A stretch of DNA of 34,448 nucleotides from assembly GCA_028821475.1 (NCBI GenBank), contig JAPPGB010000044.1, forward strand, positions 1 through 34,448, given 5' to 3'. The position numbers and the translations under genes are program-made. The notes beneath the pieces are model-generated. The model ran no database searches and was not told where the DNA came from. It was given only the letters and a program-made list of their open reading frames with translations. The stretch is from Spirochaetaceae bacterium. GTDB lineage: Bacteria; Spirochaetota; Spirochaetia; SZUA-6; Bin103. Positions 30,188-34,448 of this stretch are shown here, piece by piece; positions within the stretch are counted from its first letter, which is position 1; the number at the start of each line of letters is the position of its first letter.

Positions 30188-30838
30188 TCAGGCCACCGGG
30201 ACGAAGGTGAGGTAGCGCAGCAGGGCGCCGGCGAGCGACATCAGCCGGGAGAACACTGGTACGCCGACGATGCCAAGCAGGATCAGCCCGAGCAGCAGGT
30301 AGGAGCCGAAGCGCGCGTTGTAGTGGCGGTAGGCGTCGGCGGCGCGCGCCGGCAGCAAGTGGGGCAGGATGTAGTGGCCGTCGAGCGGGCCGAGCGGGAT
30401 CAGGTTGAACAGCATCAGCAGCAGGTTGACCCGCGCCAGCAGCACGAAGAAGGTCACCGGCCCCTCGCTGAAGAACAGGTCCACGCCGGCGGCGCGCAGC
30501 AGCAGGAACAGGTTCCAGGTCACCACGGCGAGCAGCAGGTTGGCGGCCGGGCCGGCTGCGGCAATCCACAGGTCGGCGCGCGGAGTGCGGAAGTTGCGCG
30601 GGTCGGTAGGCACCGGGCGGGCGTAGCCGAAGCCGACCAGCACCACCATGGCCAGGCCCATAGGATCGATGTGGCGCACCGGGTTGAGGGTGAGCCGGCC
30701 GGCGTACTCGGCGGTGCGGTCGCCGTTCAGCTTGGCCACGTAGGCGTGGCCGAATTCGTGCACCGACAGCGATGCGATCAGCGCCGCCACCAGCAGTGCA
30801 AAGAGCAAGACCTCACCCCGAAACAGCAGCTCGATCAT
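30188..30838 (-). CDS. Site-2-type intramembrane zinc protease (M50 family)
   Basis: A 216-residue membrane metalloprotease-like protein of the M50B family with about five membrane segments. The zinc site is HEFGH (His27, Glu28, His31) near the start of the protein, and the third ligand is Asp153 in NLIPLGPLDGHYIL. NPVRHIDPMG and AAGPAANLLLAVV are also family marks. These enzymes cleave membrane-bound substrates, often anti-sigma factors. The gene begins with MIELLFRGEVLLF. That sequence is repeated in two short frames upstream, and its ATG overlaps the stop of the second (ATGA), so its translation probably depends on the upstream frames. Confidence 0.9.
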   Translation of the reverse strand: MIELLFRGEVLLFALLVAALIASLSVHEFGHAYVAKLNGDRTAEYAGRLTLNPVRHIDPMGLAMVVLVGFGYARPVPTDPRNFRTPRADLWIAAAGPAANLLLAVVTWNLFLLLRAAGVDLFFSEGPVTFFVLLARVNLLLMLFNLIPLGPLDGHYILPHLLPARAADAYRHYNARFGSYLLLGLILLGIVGVPVFSRLMSLAGALLRYLTFVPVA

Positions 30839-30900
30839 CGCGACTCAAGCCCTCCAACAGAGAACAGCAGCACTTCGCCCCGGAACAGCAACTCGATCAT
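30835..30900 (-). CDS. 21-codon frame, repeat unit 2
   Basis: ATG at 30898-30900, 21 codons and TGA at 30835-30837. The peptide starts MIELLFRGEVLLF, identical to the first 13 residues of the M50 protease encoded immediately downstream, then SVGGLESR. Its stop overlaps the M50 start codon and its own start overlaps the stop of unit 1. It may be a translated leader that couples M50 expression to upstream translation, or the remnant of a deleted duplicate protease gene. Expression is not proven. Confidence 0.5.
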   Translation of the reverse strand: MIELLFRGEVLLFSVGGLESR

Positions 30901-30962
30901 CGTTCTCCGAACGCCTCCCACGTGAAGGGCAGCACCTGGTGCCGGAACAGTGGCTCGATCAT
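30897..30962 (-). CDS. 21-codon frame, repeat unit 1
   Basis: ATG at 30960-30962, 21 codons and TGA at 30897-30899. The peptide starts MIEPLFRHQVLPF and ends TWEAFGER. It shares 9 of the first 13 residues with unit 2 and the M50 start. Its ATG overlaps the stop codon of the NHL-repeat gene and its stop overlaps the start of unit 2, so four frames are linked by ATGA overlaps. The later half differs from unit 2, showing divergence. Confidence 0.45.
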   Translation of the reverse strand: MIEPLFRHQVLPFTWEAFGER

Positions 30963-31894
30963 CGCGCCGCGGGTGCCTCGAGGTCGTGGCGCAGCACCAC
31001 GTGGTGGTAGCGGTCCGCGGTGTACAGGGAGCCGGGCGCCCACGCCAGCGGCCCGATGATGGCGCGCCGGCCCAGGCCGACGTAGCCGGCGGCGATGGCG
31101 GGCTCGAAGGTGCCGTCCGGCGCGATCACCTGGATGCGGTAGTTGGAGCGGTCGGCCACGTACACGCGGTCACGGTCGTCCACCACCAGGCCGGAGGGGA
31201 AGATGAACGCGCCGGTTGTGCGCCCGCGCTCGCCCCACTCGGCCACGAACTCGCCATCGGCGGTGAACTTCTGCACCCGGTGGTTGTGCGCGTCCGCGAC
31301 CCACACGTTGCCGAGCGAGTCCACGGCCACGGCACGCACCTCCCGGAACTCGCCGGGCCGCGGACCCTCGCGTCCCCACGTGGCGAGGAAGGCGCCGTCG
31401 CCCGAGAAGCGCTGGATGCGATGGTTGCCGGTATCGGCCACGTACACGCCACCGTCCGGCGCCGCGGCGATCGCGCGCGGGCGGGCGAACTCGCCCGGAC
31501 CGCTGCCGTTGCCGCCCCAGGTGGTCAGCAACTCGCCGTCGGCGCTGAACTTCTGCACCCGGTGGGTGGTGAACTCCACCGTGTAGACGGCCCCGTCGCC
31601 GGCGACGGCGACACCGCTCAACCCCAGGAACTGTCCCGGCTCCGATCCCCAGGAACCGAACGAATCCACGAACTCCCCGTCCGCGGTCAGCTTCTGCACG
31701 CGGTGGTTGTCCGTGTCGGCGACGTACAGGAAGCCGGCAGCGTCGACGGCAATGTGCGCCGGGGTAAAGAACTCACCCGGCTCGAACCCGCGCGAGCCGA
31801 TAAGGGCTATCCTCTCGTCGTTGACCGCGCAACCCGCCCCGGCCACGACCAGGACGAACAGCAGCAACAAGCGGGTGGCGGCAACACGACGCAC
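30959..31894 (-). CDS. NHL-repeat lipoprotein (beta-propeller)
   Basis: A 311-residue exported protein. The signal peptide ends in the lipobox VVAGAGCAVN, so it is lipid-anchored. The body is a propeller of NHL repeats, about six blades, each with a form of the pattern VAVDSLGNVWVADAHNHRVQKFTADGEFV and a GxPGEF turn. NHL propellers bind proteins, peptides or other ligands; this one has no attached enzymatic domain. It is the first gene of the overlapping run leading to the M50 protease, and could act with it at the envelope. The GTG at 31892-31894 fits the signal peptide start. Confidence 0.88.
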   Translation of the reverse strand: MRRVAATRLLLLFVLVVAGAGCAVNDERIALIGSRGFEPGEFFTPAHIAVDAAGFLYVADTDNHRVQKLTADGEFVDSFGSWGSEPGQFLGLSGVAVAGDGAVYTVEFTTHRVQKFSADGELLTTWGGNGSGPGEFARPRAIAAAPDGGVYVADTGNHRIQRFSGDGAFLATWGREGPRPGEFREVRAVAVDSLGNVWVADAHNHRVQKFTADGEFVAEWGERGRTTGAFIFPSGLVVDDRDRVYVADRSNYRIQVIAPDGTFEPAIAAGYVGLGRRAIIGPLAWAPGSLYTADRYHHVVLRHDLEAPAAR

Positions 31895-33449: not shown

Positions 33450-34448
33450 ATGACAAACATGACCGGCGGGACCGCCAGACGACCCTTCAGCTCACTCGGT
33501 GATCAGCAGCTCCTCGAGCAGACCAGGCGCTTGGCGGCCAACCAGCGCGGCCTCGAGGTGCACATCCTGGACCATCTCGACGAGATCGACCGACGTGGGC
33601 TGGCGCTGCGGCGCGGGTTCTCGAGCCTGTTCGACTACGCGGTGCGGGAGTTGCGGTTCACCGATGCGGCCGCGCAACGGCGCATTCAGACCATGAGGTT
33701 GTGCCGGCGGCATGGCTGGGTGCGGGCCATGCTGCACAGCGGCGAGTTGAGTGTGACGTCGGCGGCGCAGTTGGAGACCGCGTTTGGCGCGGCCGAGCGC
33801 CAGTGCCGGCGAGCGAGCGCGCCCGTCGATGAGGAGCGCTGCGAAGGTCTGCATGGGCTGCCTGCTGCGCCGGGCGGAGCGGGAGACCAGGATGGCGAAG
33901 CGTCGGGAGCGGGAGCGGGGATGGCCGGTGCCGCGGCGATGACGGCAGCGTCGCCGCCCGGCGTGGCCGCCGTCGACCAGGAGGTGCGGTCGCTCGGTGA
34001 CGCCGGAGGCCGCGGGGCCCGGCACACCGGGAACGACGGCTGCAGCCGACCGCCGGACGAGCCGGAGGCGCGGTCGCTCGATGACGCCGGAGGCTACGGG
34101 GCCCGGCACACCGTGAGCGACCGTTGCAGCCCAACGTCGGACGGCTCGACGGCGCGGTCGCCCGGTGCCGCCGGAGGCCACGGGGCCCGGCGTACCGAGA
34201 GCGACCGTTACAGCCCATCGTCGGACGTCTCGGCGGCAGTCGGTGCCCGCCCGGCAGCGGCGGGTGCGCAGCCGGGTGGCCGATTGGATTCGAGTGCCGC
34301 CACCTCGGGCGCTGCACCGGCTTCGACGCCCGCCACGCTGCACGCGCCACCGCCTGCGGCGCCGGGGCGTGTACCGCGGCCCGGGCTCGCGGGTAACGAG
34401 GCGGCGGCCACGCCGGTGGTGCCGGTGGCGAGCCACGCGGCTGCGCAG
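33450..34448 (+). CDS. HNH-endonuclease-type (DUF222-like) protein, 5' part
   Basis: An open frame runs from 33450 off the window edge with no stop, 333 codons. The N-terminal helical domain (about residues 15-120) has LLEQTRRLAANQRGLEVHIL, LDEIDRRGLALRRGFSSLFDYAVREL and AAAQRRIQTMRL. That pattern precedes an HNH nuclease domain in a family often present in many genome copies. The HNH motif would lie beyond the window, so the nuclease call is inference. An Ala/Gly/Pro-rich linker (about 125-333) follows and contains three 28-residue repeats. ATG 33450 or ATG 33459 starts the gene; the AAGG at 33445 is better spaced for 33459. Confidence 0.72.
   Translation, partial: MTNMTGGTARRPFSSLGDQQLLEQTRRLAANQRGLEVHILDHLDEIDRRGLALRRGFSSLFDYAVRELRFTDAAAQRRIQTMRLCRRHGWVRAMLHSGELSVTSAAQLETAFGAAERQCRRASAPVDEERCEGLHGLPAAPGGAGDQDGEASGAGAGMAGAAAMTAASPPGVAAVDQEVRSLGDAGGRGARHTGNDGCSRPPDEPEARSLDDAGGYGARHTVSDRCSPTSDGSTARSPGAAGGHGARRTESDRYSPSSDVSAAVGARPAAAGAQPGGRLDSSAATSGAAPASTPATLHAPPPAAPGRVPRPGLAGNEAAATPVVPVASHAAAQ
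33987..34238 (+). repeat. Three 84-bp in-frame tandem repeats in the HNH-type gene
   Basis: Units begin at 33987, 34071 and 34155, each 84 bases (28 codons). They encode versions of ARSLDDAGGYGARHT followed by SDRCSPTSDGST. Copies differ at scattered positions but keep length and frame, as expected for a variable-length linker that grows and shrinks by recombination. Confidence 0.85.

Follow-up and report, generated by a model that had tools for sequence, protein, structure and literature searches.

Micro-frames echoing the start of an M50 protease gene in a Spirochaetaceae genome: possible recombination scars at gene boundaries

Described systems closest to the array

Leader peptides and small upstream ORFs of bacterial operons are short frames that lie directly upstream of a gene and are linked to its start. 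The two 62-bp units described here, which stand between a lipoprotein gene and an M50 protease gene, are likewise short, directly upstream and linked to the protease start. Unlike operon leaders, however, they have neither an attenuator structure nor an amino-acid-rich sensor, they are absent in the sister species, and their peptide copies the N terminus of the downstream protein itself. Termination-reinitiation coupling has been described at ATGA overlaps, and each unit resembles such coupled pairs in beginning and ending with a 4-nt ATGA overlap (PMC6728339). Those pairs are functional genes, whereas the putatively coupled frames here span 21 codons and echo the start of the gene that follows. 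Homology-facilitated illegitimate recombination (HFIR) is described for naturally competent bacteria and Escherichia coli conjugation (PMC3240628), and it has been proposed for the remnant arrays of orphan immunity genes in the Vibrio cholerae T6SS clusters (PMC5361080). The likeness to the V. cholerae arrays lies in sequential, one-side-homologous insertions of diverged alleles that leave remnants beside an intact gene (PMC5361080); the V. cholerae arrays keep whole immunity genes, which are likely useful, whereas here only heads of about 39 bp are present and we infer the mechanism. In the open-access literature, we found no description of micro-ORFs that echo the head of the next gene.

Layout of the array and its absence in the sister species

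The window, that is, the whole stretch of DNA analyzed (34,448 nucleotides), carries on its minus strand an ORF for an NHL-repeat (beta-propeller) lipoprotein (30959..31894; Pfam NHL, 5.8e-42) and an ORF for an M50 site-2-type membrane protease (30188..30838; Pfam Peptidase_M50, PF02163, E 1.3e-19), whose HExxH motif is present as VHEFGHAY in the translation. Between them lie two minus-strand micro-frames of 21 codons plus TGA, namely, micro-frame 1 (30897..30962), translated as MIEPLFRHQVLPFTWEAFGER and a stop, and micro-frame 2 (30835..30900), translated as MIELLFRGEVLLFSVGGLESR and a stop; the protease begins MIELLFRGEVLLFALLVAAL. The 11-mer CGATGATCGAG occurs in three identical copies on the minus strand, starting at 30964, 30902, and 30840, and the ATGs of unit 1, unit 2, and the protease (30962, 30900, and 30838) are spaced by exactly 62 bp. 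All three junctions along the series of lipoprotein, unit 1, unit 2, and protease have a 4-nt ATGA stop/start overlap; at the first, the terminal TGA of the lipoprotein ORF (31894..30959) overlaps the unit-1 ATG. The initial annotation had reported a lipoprotein stop, two 21-codon frames, and a protease start joined by this identical junction at 62-bp intervals, and this description was confirmed. Tandem Repeats Finder independently called the array at 30810-30966, with a period of 62 and 2.5 copies.

Each 62-bp unit consists of a 39-bp head matching codons 1 to 13 of the protease and a 23-bp tail. Unit 1 (30901-30962) has its head at 30924-30962 and its tail at 30901-30923, unit 2 (30839-30900) has its head at 30862-30900 and its tail at 30839-30861, and protease codons 1 to 13 (30800-30838) form the third head. 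Past codon 13, neither unit shows any resemblance to the protease, and the tails were rejected by inspection as a continuation of it. The similarity of the tails to the lipoprotein end was not beyond chance (permutation P 0.11-0.58); the last 11 codons of the lipoprotein are themselves very different between the source genome and its sister species. A whole-genome search returned no other match to the 62-bp units, which rules out a dispersed repeat. Within 1.2 Mb of the genome, window included, only one other micro-frame running from xTGA to xTGA with a repeated 10-base junction was detected, at L115, and it looked like chance. RNA folding at the units was not unusual (fold z-score +1.21), and no Rfam family matched there. 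Elsewhere in the window, an 84-bp tandem repeat (33980-34237; 3.1 copies, 85% identical) lies in or beside a coding frame near the contig end. The peptide-ABC permease gene of the window has approximately 44 homologues in the genome, a very large expansion that is common to the sister genome.

The family comprises four genomes, and the lipoprotein-protease pair was found in only one relative, the sister species G002 (Spirochaetaceae bin103), which is therefore the one informative relative. Its protease is 94% identical in amino acid sequence, and it holds the only lipoprotein orthologue (87%). In G002, the lipoprotein is joined straight to a single protease start through the same CGATGATCGAG. 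The G002 boundary is exactly 124 bp, or two units, shorter; the flanks align well, with an overall identity of 84% including the 124-bp gap. Thus, the closest relative shows what the initial annotation had named as refuting its reading, a single protease start without the repeat; conservation of frame and peptide, as expected of a selected leader, is not seen at this boundary in the one available genome that shares the pair. Proteases related more distantly lie downstream of other genes and are not preceded by units; in two MAGs at 71%, the gene upstream is a different one and overlaps the protease by GTGA. No second close copy of the protease was found in the source genome, the gene is single copy in all close relatives, and no viral contigs were recovered. 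MAGs labelled Gammaproteobacteria and Chromatiales also carry close relatives of the protease (L030 and L031-L034), with differing upstream genes, which suggests transfer or mislabelled bins.

Divergence of the heads and echoes at other boundaries

The head peptides are MIEPLFRHQVLPF in unit 1, MIELLFRGEVLLF in unit 2, and MIELLFRGEVLLF in the protease. Between the heads of unit 2 and the protease, 8 of 39 bases are different and every change is synonymous (Sd 8, Nd 0), which verified the earlier observation that the two keep the same first 13 residues despite eight base differences. By contrast, the unit-1 head differs from that of the protease by six synonymous and five non-synonymous changes, which replace 4 of the 13 residues, two of them Leu to Pro, and cluster in four codons (P 0.0012). 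Thus, the peptide is kept in unit 2 (13/13 residues) and not in unit 1, and the 13-residue peptide is not preserved in the array taken as a whole. Units 1 and 2 are nonetheless related, since both carry the derived bases GTG and TTC; their heads agree at 30 of 39 positions and their tails at 8 of 23 (P 0.0014).

With the G002 head as a guide, four of the eight differences between unit 2 and the protease fall on the protease branch and the other four on that of unit 2, where all are synonymous (P ~0.008 for four neutral changes in the head). The G002 head differs by five bases from the unit-2 head and by five from the protease head of the source genome. Under neutral duplication, synonymous and non-synonymous changes should be alike, an expectation that agrees with unit 1 but not with unit 2 (8/0). 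We simulated duplications in which purifying selection acted on one head while its copy drifted freely; of the 11,983 outcomes with eight differences, none had synonymous changes alone, which bears out, for unit 2, the argument that random decay of a duplicated stub would not keep the peptide.

The heads have also diverged more than the two species. Eight of approximately 9.8 synonymous sites differ between the unit-2 and protease heads (pS 0.81), against a pS of 0.185 for the whole protease between the source genome and G002 and a mean pS of 0.28 for 74 orthologous gene heads. A unit copied from its own protease head after the species split should differ less (P ~0.001), which calls for a source that had already diverged or for a far older origin. 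That is, either the duplication predates the species split and was lost in G002 with the peptide kept in the source lineage, or the heads are alleles that diverged before they met. Both readings predict heads that are more alike than tails, because the tails are unconstrained. The initial interpretation was right to reject simple decay but left out the possibility that the two heads diverged before their juxtaposition.

The protease echo is not isolated, and the same oddity is found at several other boundaries of the genome. We scanned 2.15 Mb (37%) of this genome alone, with genes called by a simple hexamer model (a crude gene finder), and each start was set against its 400 bp of upstream sequence, as DNA and as protein. 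As DNA, a score of 34 or more was reached at 8 of 1016 boundaries, compared with 2 of 4064 shuffled pairings. Such scores were no rarer in gene interiors (49/3889, many of them probably protein repeats); therefore, short tandem copies are common in the genome and boundaries are not enriched for them. As protein, the 627 boundaries with a gap yielded four micro-frames that echoed the N terminus of the next protein at least as well as the best of five shuffles, namely, those ahead of the M50 protease, pstB, dppC, and rsmD, of which that of rsmD only equals the best shuffle. Further candidates (L119, L187, L202, L211, and L237) were attributed to chance, to protein repeats, to mispredicted starts, or to simple repeats at boundaries.

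In the pstA-pstB gap (L181:14965-15100, minus strand), a micro-frame reading VATQMNTHAADLPAAVAAGGAHAGKE and a stop repeats the pstB start; the echo (beginning VATQMNTHAADLPA) is separated from that start by six synonymous changes and none that are non-synonymous. G002, where the boundary is single, lacks the echo, and the pst locus of a further genome, G003, gave no readable match. At the dppB-dppC boundary (L184:3736-3810), a 24-codon frame that echoes the dppC start is joined to both neighbors by GTGA. This echo occurs in both species with both GTGA overlaps intact, the G002 frame (L219) being shorter with a 30-bp in-frame difference; between the two genomes, ten clearly aligned codons, counted by eye, show six synonymous and no non-synonymous changes.

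Other boundary copies have lost their start or frame, namely, those at the opp boundary, rsmD copy 1, and the sulfatase. The oppD/oppF boundary (L116:9765-9925, contig C32) holds an 86-bp tandem duplication, with the start codon of the copy destroyed, and is single in G002. Like the protease array, it is a head-to-tail copy across a gene boundary with intact neighbors; its copies are 89% identical and decayed, whereas the protease heads differ only synonymously (unit 2) and the tails are unrelated. Ahead of the rsmD-like gene (L238:12826-12960, minus strand) are two copies of approximately 80 bp, of which copy 1 is frameshifted; the G002 boundary is about 100 bp shorter. At the sulfatase boundary (L127:10190-10345), a direct repeat of approximately 65 bp covers the leader and start of the sulfatase. 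The upstream copy has a 2-bp frameshift and reads PNIVFICT against PNILFVMS in the gene, as the start of another sulfatase would read, and the gene upstream (Fic-like by eye) is absent in the sister genome.

Explanations of the micro-frames

We tentatively favor, at a confidence somewhat short of probable, the reading that the micro-frames are scars of recombination with diverged alleles at gene boundaries and are not genes. It takes together the array structure, the absence in the sister species, the excess divergence, the recurrence of echoes, and the decay of several copies, and it would entail a donor allele, an out-of-register join, and a lack of function. Incoming or sister-chromatid DNA carrying a lipoprotein-protease boundary would have been joined out of register, which would have put approximately 23 bp from directly ahead of a protease start behind codon ~13 of one protease head, and the 62-bp unit would then have been copied once more in tandem. 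The arithmetic of the unit and the CG shared before each ATG point to such a join. Both heads would have diverged while each opened a working protease gene, ahead of their juxtaposition, the diverged head coming from a relative's allele through recombination with one illegitimate end; the synonymous-only differences suggest that the copied head probably evolved earlier in that role. Heads that are alike with tails that are not would be expected, because the heads would derive from working genes and the tails from an unconstrained 3′ end. The join would be harmless, since the gene before it keeps its own stop and translation of the protease begins at the last of the ATGs. The ATGA overlaps could let ribosomes pass through the units by termination-reinitiation, keeping the neighbors coupled, and trapped units would decay afterward, as in unit 1. 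Out-of-register boundary copies at the opp, pstB, rsmD, and sulfatase loci favor this reading. Against it, a search for the donor allele found none, the units match nothing else in the genome, the unit-2 head is no closer to the G002 head than the protease head is (five differences each), the tails resemble the lipoprotein end no more than chance allows, and the dppC echo, kept in both species with its GTGA overlaps and 6/0 substitutions, hints at constraint.

Such a constraint would be explained if the micro-frames upstream of the protease, and of pstB and dppC, were translated, coupled leaders in which the amino acid sequence of the head matters, for example, because the head sets reinitiation or the micro-peptide acts on the protease or its membrane partner. 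We regard this as possible but rather doubtful. Synonymous-only divergence at two independent loci (8/0 in unit 2 and 6/0 in the pstB echo), intact frames and ATGA or GTGA linkage (both units, and the dppC echo in each species), the conservation of heads relative to tails, and the intact echoes that the protein-level scan picked out at the protease, pstB, dppC, and rsmD all speak for it. However, the echoes at the protease and pstB are absent in G002, 4 of the 13 residues are replaced in unit 1, with Leu to Pro twice, other echoes have lost their start or frame, and there is no RNA family or unusual RNA folding at the units. To our knowledge, the protease, the phosphate ATPase, the peptide permease, and the rRNA methylase share no regulation, which also counts against selected leaders. 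The proposal of the initial annotation that the micro-peptides are themselves selected is thus unsupported as a default, given the absence of the repeat in G002, the four replacements in unit 1, and the decay of other echoes. The broader idea of echo micro-ORFs as a class that selection maintains in this spirochaete lineage at the amino acid level, and that controls several unrelated genes (M50 protease, pstB, dppC, and rsmD), for example, by a ribosome relay, we consider unlikely.

If the lipoprotein-protease boundary had simply been duplicated in tandem in this lineage and had then drifted neutrally, an excess over G002 of exactly two unit lengths would be accounted for; such duplication has a clear recent parallel in the opp boundary, and short tandem repeats are common in the genome. 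We nevertheless consider this origin quite improbable, and it is disfavored for unit 2, because the simulation never gave eight differences that were all synonymous and because the heads have diverged beyond the age that the absence of the units in the sister species allows. Full tandem protease paralogues, each deleted to 62 bp, would explain the signature of purifying selection in unit 2, but this second proposal of the initial annotation found no support and is very improbable: the genome has no other close protease homologue, the gene is single copy in all close relatives, the tails bear no likeness to the protease C terminus, and to reach the identical 62-bp length twice, a deletion would have to be followed by a duplication. 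An assembly artefact chaining strain variants of the boundary is barely credible, even though the genome is a 183-contig draft and the heads resemble alleles, since the repeated junction of 11 bp is too short for a misjoin at usual assembly word sizes, the array of 186 bp should be within ordinary read-pair reach, and the dppC echo is also present in an independent assembly.

Under either a scar or a selected-leader reading, annotation pipelines and surveys of small proteins may mistake such echoes for genes. If the heads are translated and their peptides matter, the micro-frames would represent an undescribed form of gene control by repetition of a gene's own start. If they are scars, gene boundaries would record recombination with diverged relatives, and the echoes could be interpreted as relics of earlier exchange, from which new small ORFs and coupled starts could also arise.
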